Positions 32,738-39,957 of a stretch of DNA of 55,649 nt are shown piece by piece. A program made the position numbers and the translations under genes. Position 1 is the first letter of the stretch. Each line of letters starts with the position of its first letter. Source of the DNA: Chloroflexi bacterium OHK40 (GTDB lineage: Bacteria; Chloroflexota; Chloroflexia; Chloroflexales; Chloroflexaceae); contig SFCB01000057.1 in NCBI GenBank assembly GCA_004367505.1, forward strand, positions 1 through 55,649, written 5' to 3'. The notes beneath the pieces are model-generated. The model was not told the DNA's origin. It did no database searches and saw only the letters and a program-made list of their open reading frames with translations.

Positions 32738-33106
32738 ATGCTTCGCCTGATCATATTGCTCGGTATGCTGCTGGCCCTGGCCGCATGCGGCACACCAACC
32801 CCAACGCCCCGCACCATGCCCGCCGAGATCACCGGCGTGGAGGTGGAGGTGCTTGAGTCCCAGCCGGTGCAGGTGGTGGCGTTCGTGAGCGGCGGCCTGG
32901 GCGATGGCTGCACGAGCCTGGGGCCGATCAGCCAGGCGCGTAGCGGCAGCACGATCGAGCTCACGGTGAACGCCACCCACAGCGGCGCCGAAGCCTGCAC
33001 GATGATCTACCAGACCTTTGAAGAGCGCATTCCCCTGGAGGGCGAGTTCGCGCCCGGGCAGTACACCCTGATCGTCAATGGGAGCGCGCACAGCTTTACC
33101 GTCTAA
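32738..33106 (+). CDS. Small secreted lipoprotein, unknown function
   Basis: A 122-aa lipoprotein. The start at 32738 follows GGAGGA. The signal ends at LALAAC (Cys17). A PTPTPR linker leads to one compact beta-rich domain of about 95 residues with two cysteines (GDGCTSLG and AEACTMIYQ) that may form a disulfide. It ends in a repeating pattern (FAPGQYTLIVNGSAHSFTV) typical of small beta-sandwich domains. The family is not recognised by name. Confidence 0.8.
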   Translation: MLRLIILLGMLLALAACGTPTPTPRTMPAEITGVEVEVLESQPVQVVAFVSGGLGDGCTSLGPISQARSGSTIELTVNATHSGAEACTMIYQTFEERIPLEGEFAPGQYTLIVNGSAHSFTV

Positions 33107-33167
33107 CGGGAACCGCTCAGCCCAGCGCAGATAGCTTAACCATTCCGATCAACGCGCTAGCGGCACA

Positions 33168-33207
33168 CCGCAAGCCCCTCGCCACCGACGTGGCGGGGGG
33201 CTTGCGA
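33168..33207. terminator. Bidirectional terminator hairpin
   Basis: A strong stem made of CGCAAGCCCC and TCGCCAC pairing with GTGGCG and GGGGCTTGCG lies between the convergent ends of the lipoprotein gene (33106) and the Yip1-family gene (33222). Confidence 0.8.
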
Positions 33208-33221
33208 TAAGCAGGCGGTTT

Positions 33222-33839
33222 TTACGGTGCGGTGGTGCCGCCAGCACCCATGATCGCGGCAACCAGGACCGCGAAGAAGAGGACGAAGCAGAGCACGATC
33301 GCCGTTGCGATCACGAACTCGATGATAATGACATAGAGGGCCTTGTTGCTCGGCAGATTCATCCCCGACTGGATAGCCAGGTAGGTCAGGTAAAGGTTAT
33401 AGACCGAGAGCGCGAAGGCGGCGATTCCCCCGACGATGGGGATCAGGCCGAGGAGGCTGCCGATAACGGAGAGGGGTGCTGCGAACAACGAGAGATTGTA
33501 GGCCAACTCGCCAAACTGGCCCGTGCCGCCGAAGGCCCGGCCCAGGCCGTAGGTGATCCCCCAGGCGATCAGCAGGATCAGCACGGTGAAGAGGATCGCC
33601 CCGAACACCGTCCCGAGGATGTCTGGCTGCGCTGGCGCAACCTCAGGGTCCAGCCCCGCCATAGTGGCCGCGCCCAGGCCGAGCGACGCTGCAATGGCTG
33701 CGATGATCGCGTTGATCACGCCGGCAATGAGCGAGTAGATCAGGGCCCAGGCCAGATTGTTCTTCTCGTGCTCTTCGAAGGTGGAAACCGATGGCCTGGT
33801 CAGGACTGCGATACTGCCGTTGATCATCTCTTGGAACAT
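33222..33839 (-). CDS. Yip1-family membrane protein (paralogue B)
   Basis: A 205-aa protein with five predicted membrane helices. It starts MFQEMINGSIAVLTRPSV and contains GLGRAFGGTGQFGELAYN, a Yip1-domain pattern. A GAAGGAG site precedes the start. It is clearly paralogous to the 212-aa gene at 34398-35036: start, FEEHEKNNL, AFGGxGQFGELA and IQSGMNLPSNKALYVI are shared. A TACAAT box at 33878-33883 and a terminator upstream show it is transcribed separately from the DUF35 gene. Bacterial Yip1 proteins have no established function. Confidence 0.85.
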   Translation of the reverse strand: MFQEMINGSIAVLTRPSVSTFEEHEKNNLAWALIYSLIAGVINAIIAAIAASLGLGAATMAGLDPEVAPAQPDILGTVFGAILFTVLILLIAWGITYGLGRAFGGTGQFGELAYNLSLFAAPLSVIGSLLGLIPIVGGIAAFALSVYNLYLTYLAIQSGMNLPSNKALYVIIIEFVIATAIVLCFVLFFAVLVAAIMGAGGTTAP

Positions 33840-33877
33840 GGCCGCGTCACTCCTTCAAAACGGAGGGGCTGTGCCCA

Positions 33878-33883
33878 ATTGTA
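33878..33883 (-). promoter_or_regulatory. TACAAT box upstream of Yip1 paralogue B
   Basis: The box is 38 bases before the ATG at 33839, leaving room for the GAAGGAG site. The expected -35 region lies in the preceding terminator hairpin and does not match the consensus. Confidence 0.35.
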
Positions 33884-33896
33884 AACGATCAACAGC

Positions 33897-33947
33897 AACA
33901 CGCTAGCCCCTCGCGCCAGGAAAGATCGTGCGAGGGGCTAGCGTGTT
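33897..33947 (-). terminator. Terminator hairpin after the DUF35 gene
   Basis: Eighteen-base arms (33897-33914 and 33930-33947) pair without mismatch around a 15-base loop. It lies 17 bases beyond the DUF35 stop codon. A T-rich run (TTGCTGTTG) follows on the minus strand. Confidence 0.85.
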
Positions 33948-33964
33948 TGTGGCATGCCGGCAGT

Positions 33965-34360
33965 TTACTGAAGAACGGGGCGAAACTTATAGCCGTAGAC
34001 GAGGACACCGTCCTCACCGGTGTCCAGAAGGCGACGGGTAACCACCTCAACCGGCTGGCCGATCGCCAACTCGTCCTCGCTGCAGTCCGTCAGCTGAGCC
34101 GTCACCAGCGGGCCTTCGGCGAGCCGCACTAGCGCCACGGGGTAGGGCGCGAGGGCTTCGTAGCCCTCAGGTGCCTGGCGCACCACGCTGAAACTGTAGA
34201 TCTCCCCACGGCCGCTGAGCGCCACCGGCTCCCAGAGATCGGGCTCCTCCCCGAGAGCAGGTGGTTGAGGCGGAAAACGCACCACGCCGCTATGGCGGTT
34301 ACGCTGTCCCTCAAGCCGGTAGCGCGTCGTGCGCTGGCGCCAGTGGCGGGCGATCTGCAT
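33965..34360 (-). CDS. DUF35 OB-fold protein lacking the zinc-ribbon cysteines
   Basis: A 131-aa protein of the DUF35 family (rubredoxin-like zinc ribbon plus OB fold). In archaea such proteins bridge thiolase and HMG-CoA synthase. The N-terminal helix (IARHWRQRTTRYRLEG) and the spacing around FPPQPP are as expected. However, the four zinc cysteines are replaced: the region reads GQRNRHSG and QPPALGEE. The OB part (GRGEIYSFSVVRQAP...PYPVALVRL) is intact. An AGAGG site precedes the start. It is 37 bases downstream of a Yip1 gene and one gene away from the thiolase homologue, supporting a link to the mevalonate enzymes. Confidence 0.82.
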   Translation of the reverse strand: MQIARHWRQRTTRYRLEGQRNRHSGVVRFPPQPPALGEEPDLWEPVALSGRGEIYSFSVVRQAPEGYEALAPYPVALVRLAEGPLVTAQLTDCSEDELAIGQPVEVVTRRLLDTGEDGVLVYGYKFRPVLQ

Positions 34361-34397
34361 AGAGGTACCTCTCGTGAACTGGTCCGGCGCGGACGGG

Positions 34398-35036
34398 CTA
34401 CGGGGCCGTCTGCAGGGCTCCGGTGCCGAGCAGCGCCAGCAGGGCCACGCCGAAGATGGAACAGAAGACGATCAGGAAGATGGCAAACAGGATCAGGATG
34501 ACGTACAGCGCTTTGTTGCTAGGCAGATTCATGCCCGACTGGATGGCCAGGTACGTCAGGTAGAGGCCGTAGATACCAAGGACAAAGGTGGCGATCCCGC
34601 CAACAAGCGGGATGACGGCGAGCAAGTTACTCACGATCGAGAGCGGCGCCGAGAAGAGTGCCAGACCCCAGGCCAGTTCGCCAAACTGGCCACTCCCGCC
34701 GAACGCCCGACCCAGGCCGTAGACGATACCCCAGTAGATCAGTGAGCCGATCACCGTACCGATCAGTGCGCCAAGAATGGCGCCCACCAGGCCACCCTGG
34801 GAGGCCGCCACGGCAGCGTCGATCTGCACCGGGTCCATGCCGCTGGCCTCCAGTTGCGCCCGCACCTGGCCAGCGCGGAGCGGAGCTGTAAGCGTAGCGA
34901 TGATCGCGTTGATCACCGCAGCAGAGACGGCGTAGATCAGCGCCCACTGCAGGTTGTTCTTCTCATGCTCCTCGAAGGTTGAGACCGCCGGCTTCGTCAG
35001 GACCGCGATGCTGCCGTTGAACATTTCCTGGAACAT
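34398..35036 (-). CDS. Yip1-family membrane protein (paralogue A)
   Basis: A 212-aa protein with about five membrane helices and the Yip1-type segment GLGRAFGGSGQFGELAWG. The start at 35036 has an AAGGAG site and aligns with the start of paralogue B; the longer frame begins inside the -10 box. The loop after the first helices differs from paralogue B (acidic VQIDAAVAAS here). It is probably co-transcribed with the DUF35 gene. Its function is unknown; it may anchor DUF35-linked enzymes to the membrane, which is speculative. Confidence 0.85.
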   Translation of the reverse strand: MFQEMFNGSIAVLTKPAVSTFEEHEKNNLQWALIYAVSAAVINAIIATLTAPLRAGQVRAQLEASGMDPVQIDAAVAASQGGLVGAILGALIGTVIGSLIYWGIVYGLGRAFGGSGQFGELAWGLALFSAPLSIVSNLLAVIPLVGGIATFVLGIYGLYLTYLAIQSGMNLPSNKALYVILILFAIFLIVFCSIFGVALLALLGTGALQTAP

Positions 35037-35073
35037 GCCTGGCTCCTTGTGGTCGGCCGGAGTGCGCGACGCC

Positions 35074-35102
35074 ATTGTAATCGCTTAAACGTAAAACGTA
35101 AA
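35074..35102 (-). promoter_or_regulatory. Promoter of the Yip1/DUF35 operon
   Basis: TTTACG (35097-35102) and TACAAT (35074-35079) are separated by 17 bases on the minus strand. The start codon at 35036 lies 37 bases beyond the -10 box. Confidence 0.5.
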
Positions 35103-35287
35103 GCCCTTTCTGGGCGGCCCATCACGAGATGTAGCCCGAGCTTACGCTTTACGCCTGGCCTCCCCGAACCACCACCATGCTCCCCCGAATCCAGACACTG
35201 CACAGCCGCCTGCTCACCGCGTCTCCCGTGCCCCCCCGAACGACGCGCAGGGTTGTGCGCCAGGCATGTGAAGATCTACCGCAGCAT

Positions 35288-36469
35288 CTACTCGGCGACC
35301 AGCACGCATGTGGCCGCCGTGGCGCCCACACCGCCGAGGCACTGGGCAAGCGCCACACGAGCACCGGACACCTGAGTGGGCCCGGCCTCGCCACGCAACT
35401 GCCGGATCAACTCGACCACCTGATAGACGCCGCTCGCCCCGCCCACGTCGCCACGGGCCTTGTAGCCGCCGGCGGTCGCCAGCGGGGTCCGCCCCGTTGG
35501 CGCGATCGCACCGTCGGCGGCGTGGCGTGGCGCCTCGCCTCGCCGGTAGTAGCCGATCGCCTCCAGGGCGAGGGCTGCCGCGATCCCGTGGGGGTCACAC
35601 AGCTCAAAGACATGCACATCACCCAGGCCCATGTGGGCCCGTCCGAGCGCCATATGGGCGCTCGCGCGGGCGGCAGGCAGATCGAGCGGGTCGAGGCGCG
35701 CACCGAGTGCCGGGGCATCGGTGGCCACGGCCGTGCCAGCCAGCCGCACGAGCGGCCCCCGGCCACCATCGCGATCGGCCAGGCTGCGGGCTACCCGCTC
35801 GCTCGCCAGGATTACGCAGGCAGCACCATCGGCCAGGCTGCTACAGTCGAGCATATTGAGTGGCGAGGCGATCTGGGCAGCCTTGCGGTACTTATCGGCG
35901 TTGATCGGAAAGCGATAGAGCGCCTGCGGGTTTTTCGCGGCATTGGCGTGAGCATTGACCGGGAAGGGGGCAAACGCCTCGGCCGGGTAGCCGTGCTCAT
36001 GCATGTAGCGGCGCATCAGCAGGGCCCACTGGGCCGTGAGCGTGAGGCCGTGCAGGGCGTCGGCCTCGGCGTCGGCGGCAAGCGCCAGCGCCGCCTCAAC
36101 CTCGGCCTCTAGCTGGTCGGTTACCTTCTCTACGCCGAGCACTACCGCCACCTCGCAGCTCCCGGCGGCGATCGCCTGCCCGGCCTGCTGGATGGCTACC
36201 CCGCCGCTAGCGCCGGCAGCCTCCACCCGCACCGCCGGGATGCCCGGCAGCCCTACAACGGATGCCAGGAAGGCGCCGAGCTGGCCCTGGCCGGCAAGGC
36301 GCTCGCCGAGGGCATTGGCGACAAACAGACCGCCAACCCTGGATGGCTCCAGCCCAGGCGCAGTAGCAAAGGCGCCCCGCACCGCGTCGCAGGCCAGCGC
36401 GCTCAGACTGCGGCCGTAATGCTCGGCCACCGGGGTTGCGGCAGAGGCAATGATGTAGATCGGATTCAT
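35288..36469 (-). CDS. Thiolase-fold protein (archaeal/SCP2-type) with all catalytic motifs replaced
   Basis: A 393-aa member of the thiolase superfamily, full length. Family landmarks are clear: IIASAATPVAEH at the start, LGVEKVTD, RRYMHEHGYPAEAFAPFPV, and NAHANAAKNP. The nucleophile motif VEAACASGG instead reads VEAAGASGG, so Gly86 replaces the Cys. The HDAF motif reads CDPHG (residues 291-295). The GHP motif reads GDV (Asp341). An enzyme lacking these should not form the acyl-enzyme. It lies 33 bases after the HMG-CoA synthase stop, so it is probably co-expressed. It may be a structural partner of the synthase. Calling it acetyl-CoA acetyltransferase would be misleading. Confidence 0.85.
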   Translation of the reverse strand: MNPIYIIASAATPVAEHYGRSLSALACDAVRGAFATAPGLEPSRVGGLFVANALGERLAGQGQLGAFLASVVGLPGIPAVRVEAAGASGGVAIQQAGQAIAAGSCEVAVVLGVEKVTDQLEAEVEAALALAADAEADALHGLTLTAQWALLMRRYMHEHGYPAEAFAPFPVNAHANAAKNPQALYRFPINADKYRKAAQIASPLNMLDCSSLADGAACVILASERVARSLADRDGGRGPLVRLAGTAVATDAPALGARLDPLDLPAARASAHMALGRAHMGLGDVHVFELCDPHGIAAALALEAIGYYRRGEAPRHAADGAIAPTGRTPLATAGGYKARGDVGGASGVYQVVELIRQLRGEAGPTQVSGARVALAQCLGGVGATAATCVLVAE

Positions 36470-36502
36470 CGAGCGTATCCTCATCGTGCGGGCGAGGCCG
36501 GG

Positions 36503-37558
36503 CTAGCCCAGCACCAGCTTGCCGCGCCACCTGGCGTAGATCGCGTAGTCCACAGGCACGGCCCGCCGCAGATAGACCTCAGTGAGCGGGGCACGGCTAC
36601 GACGCGCAATCAGCCGCTCGGTCACCGTCAGGGCATAGGCGTCGGAGCCGGCACCGCTCCCGTAGGTCGTCATGAAGATGGTATCGCCGGGTTGGGCCAC
36701 ATCGAGGATGGCGCAGAGGCCCGCCAGGGCCGCGCCCGAGTAGGTGTTGCCGATCTGCGGGCTGAGCATGCCTGGCGCGATCTGCGCATCGCTAAATCCC
36801 AGACGCCTGGCGACGGCCTGCGGAAACTTGGCGTTGGGCTGATGGAAGACGGCGTAGGTGAACTCCTCCGGCGCGCGGCCGAGCTCATCAAGCAGACGCC
36901 GGCCAGCGCTCTGGATCTGCTGGAAGTAGGCCGGCTCACCGGTGAAGCGATTGCCGTGCACCGGGTAGGGCCGGTCGGCGCGCCGGAAAAAGTCGGGCGT
37001 ATCGCTCACATAGGAGACGGTCCCGTCGATCGTAGCCAGCGCCTCCTCGGCGGGGCCCACCACCAGGGCAGCGGCGCCTGCCGAGGCGGTGTACTCAAGC
37101 GCATCACCCGGGCGGCCCTGGGCGGTGTCGGCGCCGATGGCGAGGGCGTACTCCTGCATCCCGCTACCTACCAGGGCCATGGCGGCGGTGAGCGCCTCGG
37201 AGCCTGCCTTGCAGGCAAACTCCCAGTCGGCGGCGCTCACCCACGGTGTTGCGCCAAGCGCCTCGGCCACGATCGTCCCAGAGGGCTTCACGCTGTAGGG
37301 GTGGCTCTCGCTGCCCACCCACACCGCGCCGAGGCGCTCGGGTGGCACCTCGGCGCGGGCCAGGGCATTGCGGGCCGCCTCGATCGCCATCGTAATCGTA
37401 TCTTCGTCGGGACCAGGCACGCTCTTGGCCTCAACCGGCACTCCGGCCTGCCCGTCAGTCCAGATCCGGGCGATCTCGGTGGCGGCGATACGATAACGAG
37501 GGATGTAGAGACCGTAGCCGATCAGGCCAACCGGTCGTGCTGGTTTCATCATGGACAT
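36503..37558 (-). CDS. Hydroxymethylglutaryl-CoA synthase, archaeal type
   Basis: Condenses acetyl-CoA and acetoacetyl-CoA to HMG-CoA for the mevalonate pathway, 351 aa, the short archaeal form. Catalytic residues are present: Glu84 (GSESHPYS), Cys116 (FACKAGSEA) and His239 (VFHQPNAKFP). The start at 37558 is chosen by homology to the usual N-terminus (VGLIGYGLYIPRYRI); no strong ribosome-binding site is visible. It sits 146 bases downstream of the HMG-CoA reductase gene, and the thiolase homologue follows closely. Confidence 0.95.
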   Translation of the reverse strand: MSMMKPARPVGLIGYGLYIPRYRIAATEIARIWTDGQAGVPVEAKSVPGPDEDTITMAIEAARNALARAEVPPERLGAVWVGSESHPYSVKPSGTIVAEALGATPWVSAADWEFACKAGSEALTAAMALVGSGMQEYALAIGADTAQGRPGDALEYTASAGAAALVVGPAEEALATIDGTVSYVSDTPDFFRRADRPYPVHGNRFTGEPAYFQQIQSAGRRLLDELGRAPEEFTYAVFHQPNAKFPQAVARRLGFSDAQIAPGMLSPQIGNTYSGAALAGLCAILDVAQPGDTIFMTTYGSGAGSDAYALTVTERLIARRSRAPLTEVYLRRAVPVDYAIYARWRGKLVLG

Positions 37559-37704
37559 GGTGCTTTCGGTAAGTGGATCCGAGAAAGGGGGGGGTCGGGA
37601 GCGGCTCGGATCAACGAGCGCCCAGCCCCCGCTGCGAGCGGAGCGGTCACGCATTGCCCGCGCCCCCGGCCCTCGCGCAGTCAGGGCGATTCCGGTAGGC
37701 ACTG

Positions 37705-38994
37705 CTACCCACGCAGCTCAGCCACGAGCTCCTCGGCGCGGGCGGGCTTGATGTTGCGCTCCTCAACCATCCGGCGCGCCACCTCGTCCACGAGCCCTCC
37801 AGCGGCACCGGCGGCCATCGCGATCTGGCGGGCGTGCAGCCCCATATGGCCCTGCTGGATGCCCTCGCAGGCGAGCGCGCGCATGGCCGCAAGGTTGCTC
37901 GCCAGGCCCGCGCAGACGGCGATCTGGGCGAGTTCACCGGCGCTCTCCACCCCGAGCAGCTTCAGAGCCGTCTGCGCGGCCGGGTGCACCTTCGTGGCCC
38001 CACCAACAATCCCGACCGCCATGGGCAGCTCCAGGCTCCCCACGAGGTTGCCCGCCTCGTCGCGCTCCCAGACACTGAGCGAGGTATACTGGCCCGAACG
38101 CGCCGCATAGGCGTGGGCGCCAGCCTCGATCGCGCGCCAGTCGTTCCCGGTGGCCACAATCACCGGATCGATCCCGTTGAGAATGCCCTTGTTGTGAGTG
38201 GTCGCACGGTACACGTCTACGGCGGCGAAGGCATAGGCCCACATGATCCCCTCGGCCACCTCCTCGCCGCTCAGCCCATCACGGGCCAGGGCCGACGGCG
38301 GTACCACGCAGCGTGCGCGAGCCAGACGTCGGTCGCTCAGGTTCGAGAGGATGCGCAGATAGACCCGGCCACCCGTGATCTGCTCGATCAGCGGGGCGAC
38401 TGCCTCGCACATCGAGTTGATCGCGTTGGCGCCCATCGCGTCGCGGCAGTCAACGATCAGATGCACGACGAGCATTGGCCCCATGGGGCTCGTGGCATGG
38501 AAGTGCACCTCCACATCGCGGGCGCCACCGCCAAGGGCTACGAGCGAGCGGCTCTGGGCGTTGGCCGTCTCGATCAACGCTTGCTTATGGCTCAGGATCG
38601 CGTGGCGCGCGCTCTGGGGAGCGGCGACACCCACTACCTGCACCTGGCCGATCATCAGCGGCTCGGTGCTGATCGCCACAAAACCACCGCCCTCGCGCAC
38701 CATGCGGGCGGCGTAGCTCGCCCCGGCGACAATCGACGGCTCCTCCACGACCATCGGGATGAGGTAGTCGCGACCATTGATGGTGAAGTTCGTCGCGATC
38801 CCGAGGGGCAGGTTGAAGGTGCCAATCACGTTCTCGATCATCTTGTCGGCACGCTCGACGCTGAGGATGCCCTGGCCTCCATGGAGGACTCGCAGGTCCT
38901 CATCGCCAAGCCCATCGAACGACTTGACCATCTGGAGTCGCTCGAAGGGGTTGAGCTGGTAGAAGCCCTGGAGTCGCGAGTTCTTCGTACCCAT
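37705..38994 (-). CDS. Hydroxymethylglutaryl-CoA reductase, class II (degradative-type)
   Basis: Interconverts HMG-CoA and mevalonate, 429 aa. The start at 38994 follows a CGGAGG site and opens with the class II N-terminus ([18 protein letters not shown]). [15 protein letters not shown] and [14 protein letters not shown] (containing the catalytic Glu) are class II signatures; [13 protein letters not shown] contains the catalytic Lys; and [11 protein letters not shown] contains the His. Class II enzymes are called degradative after Pseudomonas mevalonii, but in bacteria with HMG-CoA synthase alongside they serve isoprenoid synthesis. It is the first gene of the block; a TACAAT box lies at 39052-39057. 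Confidence 0.95.
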
Positions 38995-39051
38995 ACGTCC
39001 GGCTGCGCCTCCGTTTTGTGATAGTCTGCACAAACTCAATACTCTGGAGTG

Positions 39052-39057
39052 ATTGTA
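39052..39057 (-). promoter_or_regulatory. TACAAT box upstream of the HMG-CoA reductase gene
   Basis: The box lies 57 bases before the ATG at 38994. A TTGACA at 39091-39096 is too far away (33 bases) to be its -35 element. Confidence 0.35.
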
Positions 39058-39230
39058 CCATCGTCTCGCTTTCAGAAGCCTCAAAAAGACTGTCAAAACC
39101 TATCATGACCCTCTCCGAGCCTTTCAACTGCATAGACGTACGACGGGCAGGCGTAGGTGCACGGCGGGGGTGAGCGCAAGGGGAGATCGCCGCGTTTCGT
39201 GGAGGGACAGAGCCCCCGGCGGTGCCGTGG

Positions 39231-39236
39231 TACAAT
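39231..39236 (+). promoter_or_regulatory. TACAAT box seven bases before a lipoprotein gene
   Basis: TACAAT is followed by GGCCGCC and the ATG at 39244, another case of a -10 box almost touching the start codon. Confidence 0.45.
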
Positions 39237-39243
39237 GGCCGCC

Positions 39244-39957
39244 ATGCGCGCACTGCTCCTGATCGTTGTGATGCTCGCCCTGGGCGCCTGTACCAGCCAA
39301 CCCGCTCCGGCGGCAACCCGGATCCCGGCCCCGACTGTCCCGGCGGTCGGCGAGCTGCTGGCCGGGCCACGAGCCGGGCCGGTGAGCACTGTTGGCTACC
39401 TCTACCTGACATCCGATGGGGCCGCCCTGGTAGGCGGGCTCAGCTACGCCACCGCCGATCCGCCCGAGCCGCTCGGCGCGGGCCTCTGGCTCGGCGAACT
39501 CCAACAGCTTCCCGCAGAACCGCCGCTCACGCAGGCCGGTGATCGCCGCTTCGGCCTTGCGCTGGCCCACGGCACCCTGGAGGGGCCAGGCGCCTACGGG
39601 CCCGGGGGCGCGTACCGCTACCGGCTGGCTGCCCCGGTCATCGAGTCGCTCGGTGTTCGCGAACTCAGCATCCCCCTGCTACTCGCCAATACCGAACTCT
39701 ACGAAGGCCAGCCGGTACGCCTGGAGGGCCAGTTGCTCAGTGGCCCCGACGCCGCCCTACTTGTCGAGCGGCTCGGTTCTGGCGGCGTGCCCGATGACAC
39801 GGCGCTGCAGGTGAAGCTGGCCGGCCCCATCGCCGACCAGGCACTGACAGCCGGGCTGCGGCAGGCCGGCGCCCCCGGCGTACGCTTCGGGCCGGTCGCT
39901 GTGACCGGCCTCTGGCGGGCCGGGCGCCTCTACCCGCTTGCGGTTGTCGCGCGTTAA
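39244..39957 (+). CDS. Secreted lipoprotein of unknown function
   Basis: A 237-aa lipoprotein whose signal ends at LALGAC (Cys17), followed by a PAPAATRIPAPTVP linker. The mature part of about 200 residues has repeated beta-strand patterns, including VGYLYLTSDGAALVGGLSY near residues 47-65 and VTGLWRAGRLYPLAVV at the end, which recalls OB-like strands. It is divergent from the mevalonate block. The family is not recognised; no catalytic motif is visible. Confidence 0.75.
   Translation: MRALLLIVVMLALGACTSQPAPAATRIPAPTVPAVGELLAGPRAGPVSTVGYLYLTSDGAALVGGLSYATADPPEPLGAGLWLGELQQLPAEPPLTQAGDRRFGLALAHGTLEGPGAYGPGGAYRYRLAAPVIESLGVRELSIPLLLANTELYEGQPVRLEGQLLSGPDAALLVERLGSGGVPDDTALQVKLAGPIADQALTAGLRQAGAPGVRFGPVAVTGLWRAGRLYPLAVVAR

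Follow-up and report, generated by a model that had tools for sequence, protein, structure and literature searches.

A thiolase-like protein without catalytic residues is a probable non-catalytic partner of HMG-CoA synthase in Chloroflexales

The mevalonate gene block of a Chloroflexi bacterium contains a thiolase-like protein that no longer has the residues for covalent acyl transfer. The DNA analysed here, referred to throughout as the window, is a stretch of 55,649 nucleotides from Chloroflexi bacterium OHK40. The gene stands in fixed order with those of an intact HMG-CoA synthase (HMGS) and a DUF35 protein, and it co-occurs with HMGS across the order Chloroflexales. We conclude that its product is probably a non-catalytic thiolase-fold subunit of an HMGS complex. 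In Chloroflexales the three proteins would assemble, and the dead subunit would bind CoA and influence HMGS. What is new is the extent of the loss (the whole order, with milder forms over the phylum), its tie to HMGS, its co-variation with other thiolases, the refixed residues and a zinc-free DUF35. These observations are of relevance both to the mevalonate pathway and to research on dead enzymes.

The gene runs on the minus strand from 36469 to 35291, with the stop codon extending to 35288, and forms an open reading frame of 393 amino acids, intact and full-length as the original prediction had held; an in-frame ATG at 36484 offers an alternative start that would add five residues. The protein (35288..36469) matches the Pfam profiles Thiolase_N and Thiolase_C_1. 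By sequence and by AF2 model it has the thiolase fold and full-length similarity to archaeal-type acetoacetyl-CoA thiolase. Its best solved match is the Pyrococcus thiolase 7YVY (E 2e-77), followed by the thiolase of 6ESQ (E 2e-44), and the same two structures come first when the model is compared by Foldseek and VIA-align (Z 41.5 and 40.1, respectively). The model, based on 15 close sequences, is of modest quality (pLDDT 70, pTM 0.77), with pLDDT <50 at residues 120-146 and 164-211. The protein stays below the curated family cut-offs for the archaeal-type thiolase, scoring 319 bits against the NCBIfam thiolase subfamily PRK06064 (cut-off 420) and 249 bits against NF053570 (cut-off 600).

Alignment to 7YVY, 6ESQ and homologues places the motif slots on the nucleophile Cys, VHDAF/VHDCF and GHP/GHA of the solved thiolases, and confirms all three of the losses proposed for this gene (Gly86, CDPHG and GDV). 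The nucleophile Cys is replaced by Gly86 (VEAAGASGG; 36212..36214, minus strand). HDAF gives way to C291-D292-P293-H294, followed by G295 (35588..35599, minus strand), and the His of GHP to Asp341 within G340-D341-V342 (35447..35449, minus strand), leaving Cys291 and Asp341 where archaeal-type acetoacetyl-CoA thiolase has the His of HD(A/C)F and the His of GHP. The C-terminal NxGG segment is altered too (AQCLGG vs TQNIGG). A search for Rfam elements gave none in 33000-39500 of the window.

The same state is found throughout the order. The genome of the window belongs to Chloroflexales, with Oscillochloris, Chloroflexus and Viridilinea as its named relatives, and a homologue (E <1e-20) is present in 74/82 genomes of this order. 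None of the 68 distinct copies has the nucleophile Cys: Gly86 is found in 66, and the remaining two have a Thr and an alignment gap. Asp292, His294 and Trp148 (36026..36028, minus strand) are each present in 68/68 copies and Asp341 in 64/68. By comparison, Cys occupies slot 86 in 48/48 homologues of the Cys clade and of the standalone kind. The Gly/CDPHG/GDV set therefore recurs as a clade over all Chloroflexales, the check that the original prediction had proposed, and milder forms occur in other Chloroflexota. Two copies (L079 and L083) still have the HDxF His together with DPH. The automatic label acetyl-CoA acetyltransferase is wrong for this gene in the order that holds Chloroflexus and Oscillochloris, and the mislabelling would lead to the first step of the isoprenoid pathway being misplaced in Chloroflexales.

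All genes of the block lie on the minus strand. The archaeal-type HMGS (36503..37555) scores 493 bits against TIGR00748 (cut-off 353) and has chain I of 6ESQ as its best solved match (E 8e-121). Its active-site Glu, Cys and His are intact, as they are in every copy with the column filled (Glu 106/106, Cys 106/106, His 109/109). HMG-CoA reductase (HMGR) of the TIGR00532 class (37705..39096) lies upstream in the window and precedes the block in 32/32 loci covering that position. The DUF35 protein (33965..34360), with an OB fold and a match to Pfam OB_ChsH2_C, has chain E of 6ESQ as its best solved match (E 2e-27). It is separated from the thiolase-like gene by a Yip1-domain membrane protein (34398..35075), which gap lengths across loci mark as an insertion in part of the order and not as core. 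The order HMGS, thiolase-like gene, DUF35 on one strand holds in 65/65 Chloroflexales loci with all three in the fetched stretch, the genes being adjacent or separated by at most a few others. Two Yip1-domain membrane proteins flank the DUF35 gene in the window (33222-33839 and 34398-35075), and the gap between the thiolase-like and DUF35 genes varies across the order as if the pair had been gained and lost.

Of the 82 Chloroflexales genomes, 74 carry HMGS and 74 carry the thiolase-like gene. Neither gene occurs in seven, of which two (G049 and G055) have an estimated completeness of 100%. HMGS occurs without a complete thiolase-like gene in three genomes, in all of which HMGS ends at the contig end, and the thiolase-like gene occurs alone in one, also at a contig end, so among the 82 genomes there is no assembled case of either gene without the other. 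The gene order, this co-occurrence and the match of all three proteins to subunits of 6ESQ support the proposed link to HMGS and DUF35. In one Oscillochloris metagenome-assembled genome the HMGS gene (L034, 3172-4233) contains an in-frame TAG that is probably an assembly error.

To survey the phylum outside the order, we covered 350 Chloroflexota genomes and read 80 loci, counting a thiolase homologue as HMGS-linked when HMGS lay within about 3 kb. Among the 42 HMGS-linked homologues, 13 have C/H/H and 29 are without Cys, the slot being filled by Gly (20), Asp (5), Glu (3) or Gln (1). Of the 38 homologues away from HMGS, 35 have Cys and the other three are members of a distinct group that has Thr. 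Thr group apart, Cys-less copies lie beside HMGS in 29/29 cases, and unlinked copies have Cys in 35/35. Fisher tests of Cys loss against HMGS linkage give about 1e-8 to 1e-11, values that overstate significance because the copies are kin, which lowers the weight of such association statistics.

The 29 Cys-less copies form a graded series: some retain HDAF and GHP, and most have HD together with GF or GN. Position 148 is Ala in 27/29, position 294 mostly Phe and position 341 mostly Phe or Asn. One phylum thus offers a natural series from a working complex, through partly stripped forms (Asp or Gly for Cys, HDAF kept), to one in which none of the motifs is catalytic. This series makes it testable to what extent the complex serves channelling and to what extent it exists because HMGS needs a partner to form its CoA site. 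Other Cys-less forms were also encountered. The Thr group (L084, L085, L086, L129, L130 and L132; VEAATATGA/VRAATATGA) retains HDAF and GHP and is unlinked to HMGS; in L129 a probable dephospho-CoA kinase, encoded on the opposite strand, is among its neighbours. The HMGS-linked copy with Gln at the slot (L166, EAGQASGG) recalls decarboxylating KSQ domains. A plasmid search for relatives returned 11 distant matches, 10 of them haloarchaeal, at 32-38% identity.

Two further changes go beyond the original prediction, namely the loss of the zinc ribbon from DUF35 and the residues fixed anew at the motif sites. All four zinc-ribbon Cys are lost from the DUF35 protein of the window, and the Cys4 ribbon is missing throughout Chloroflexales, where one copy has a single stray Cys; zinc-free DUF35 is found in the window (33965-34360) and in 65 or so other loci of the order. 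The ribbon is retained in the DUF35 of Cys-bearing and nearly all other Cys-less Chloroflexota lineages, and every one of the solved DUF35 structures that have been reviewed binds zinc (PMC6996347). In the AF2 model of the window DUF35 (pLDDT 79) the former ribbon is confidently placed (blocks 21-50, pLDDT 87-91). Since the zinc ribbon has been lost in Chloroflexales, the geometry of the complex may have changed, which counts against the non-catalytic subunit that we favour.

Compared with Cys-bearing homologues, the Chloroflexales thiolase-like proteins have 6/393 positions (53, 86, 148, 293, 294 and 341) fixed to different residues, A53, G86, W148, P293, H294 and D341, as type-II sites. Four of the six (G86, P293, H294 and D341) lie in the catalytic motifs (hypergeometric about 3e-6). 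At position 148 the Chloroflexales copies have Trp, whereas HMGS-linked Cys-bearing thiolases have Asn and other Cys-less lineages Ala. The refixing of six sites, with other residues in the remaining Cys-less lineages, argues that the Chloroflexales pocket has been set in a new state, in which it would be either closed by packing or put to a new use. In a plain scaffold the old active site would be expected to drift, as it partly does in other Cys-less lineages; the six refixed sites, four of them in catalytic motifs, speak against so simple a role.

What this new state means can be read in several ways. The thiolase site may have been rebuilt as a new conserved pocket (G86, W148, P293, H294 and D341) that, together with the zinc-free DUF35, binds or converts a CoA ester for HMGS. 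This would be a new mode of the complex, and we regard it as unlikely, if plausible. It is doubtful that the protein is a neofunctionalised enzyme, its pocket rebuilt for a Cys-independent reaction on a CoA ester (for example aldol cleavage, decarboxylation or hydrolysis) that serves or proofreads the HMGS step. The six type-II sites, with W148 and H294 invariant in 68/68, would fit such an enzyme, and Cys-less aldolases of the thiolase fold exist (Ltp2, Sal; PMC12329534). However, the operon points to no substrate, and the slot of the aldolase base Tyr holds Thr, Ser, Cys or His in all 68 Chloroflexales copies. An aldolase of the Ltp2/Sal type, which depends on the catalytic Tyr of YDxF/Y, is thereby rejected. 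In addition, the other Cys-less lineages of the clade are without W148, H294 and D341, so retention of the gene cannot be ascribed to these residues.

Regulation by ligand sensing is one recognised fate of dead enzyme subunits in general. A conserved, refixed pocket without a nucleophile, in a subunit tied to HMGS, could in this way bind CoA, acetoacetyl-CoA or HMG-CoA and alter HMGS activity; ligand binding and allostery are both conjectural, and we consider this role improbable.

A source of acetoacetyl-CoA other than the thiolase-like protein is at hand. The window's genome encodes four classical thiolases that score above the cut-off of TIGR01930. All four have Cys, NEAF, GHP and CxG, and one of them adjoins a short-chain reductase of PhaB type. 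The cut-off is exceeded in 79/82 Chloroflexales genomes, and a classical thiolase is missing in about 1/73 Cys-less genomes of the order. Outside the order it is missing in 5/13 Cys-bearing genomes, the five representing three families, vs 0/29 Cys-less HMGS-linked genomes (P 0.0015). This contrast is what would be expected if loss of the Cys required the presence of another thiolase. Thus the four intact classical thiolases and the pattern over the phylum support the proposal that acetoacetyl-CoA comes from another thiolase, in a class of Chloroflexi that relies on the mevalonate route (PMC3857490). It is correspondingly very improbable that the protein is a residual or altered thiolase which still condenses acetyl-CoA with, for instance, C291, C377 or H294 as a stand-in. 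C291 and C377 do lie close to the old motifs in the window copy, but position 291 is Cys in 2/68 copies and position 377 in 50/68, conservation too poor for a replacement nucleophile, and both catalytic His are lost as well.

To follow the history of the loss, we built trees with the motif columns left out. In a tree of 100 sequences all 62 Cys-less copies form one clade (SH-aLRT 87). In a careful tree of 60 sequences this clade has UFBoot 84 and SH-aLRT 53, and one change suffices in 82% of bootstrap trees. The Cys was probably lost once, long ago, two losses being less probable on these trees. The Cys-less clade is nested among HMGS-linked Cys-bearing thiolases, and because its sister groups include them we infer that linkage to HMGS came first and the chemistry was lost later. 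In comparisons of pairs of relatives, the thiolase-like gene has a dN/dS of 0.03-0.09; the corresponding values are 0.01-0.05 (HMGS) and 0.01-0.09 (DUF35). The thiolase-like gene is under strong purifying selection, in agreement with the original prediction that it has been kept. Nothing favours a sequencing or assembly artefact, a lone outlier or a decaying pseudogene, to which we give next to no credence given the common state of 68 distinct copies, their open frames and a dN/dS well <1.

Formation of acetoacetyl-CoA is thermodynamically unfavourable, an obstacle that the archaeal complex presumably overcomes by handing the intermediate directly to HMGS. For the non-catalytic subunit that we favour, the following course can be proposed. 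In the archaeal complex, CoA occupies a single site to which thiolase, HMGS and DUF35 all contribute residues, as stated for 6ESQ (PMC6392133); with a site shared among three proteins, HMGS could not readily shed its thiolase partner. After a soluble thiolase of PhaA type became able to supply acetoacetyl-CoA, selection on the thiolase chemistry of the subunit would lapse, and Cys would be lost first, then HDAF and GHP. The subunit would be retained for its part in completing both CoA site and oligomer for HMGS. It may bind acetoacetyl-CoA or acetyl-CoA for HMGS while neither cleaving nor condensing them. The back reaction, thiolysis of acetoacetyl-CoA, would thereby be removed from the complex, an advantage that we offer as speculation.

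We found no earlier report of a pseudo-thiolase or of the Chloroflexi thiolase step in the open-access literature. We regard the system as a modified form of a known complex and not as a distinct type. The closest counterpart is the acetoacetyl-CoA thiolase/DUF35/HMGS complex of Methanothermococcus thermolithotrophicus (6ESQ, 6ET9), and the genes for the corresponding three proteins are found together in the window; unlike it, the window has a thiolase subunit without Cys, HDxF His or GHP His and a DUF35 without the zinc Cys. Pyrococcus furiosus PFC_04095 (7YVY) is the closest solved protein in sequence and fold (41% identity over the VIA alignment, Z 41.5), but itself has C/HDAF/GHP. The thiolase-fold steroid aldolases Ltp2-ChsH2(DUF35) and Sal-Shy(DUF35), as well as TbSLP, are likewise without the nucleophile Cys, Sal having Gly at the slot as in the window, and a DUF35 partner accompanies both Ltp2 and Sal (PMC12329534). 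However, these proteins have YDHF, YDCY or YDCF with a catalytic Tyr, a steroid context and no HMGS. ST0096 of Sulfolobus tokodaii (4YZO), a thiolase fold of 24% or so identity, also has no Cys at the slot (RVDNTSGSGG) but retains HD and GHP. Finally, the PhlABC and MucABC acyltransferases follow the same three-subunit plan with one subunit dead, which in PhlABC is the HMGS-like PhlA, where Gly115 replaces the Cys and Cys83 the Glu (PMC6392133). By analogy, PhlABC shows that complexes of this kind tolerate a dead subunit, and so provides a precedent for the window. It is also its mirror image: in PhlABC the working subunit is the thiolase-like PhlC and the dead one is HMGS-like, whereas here the opposite holds.
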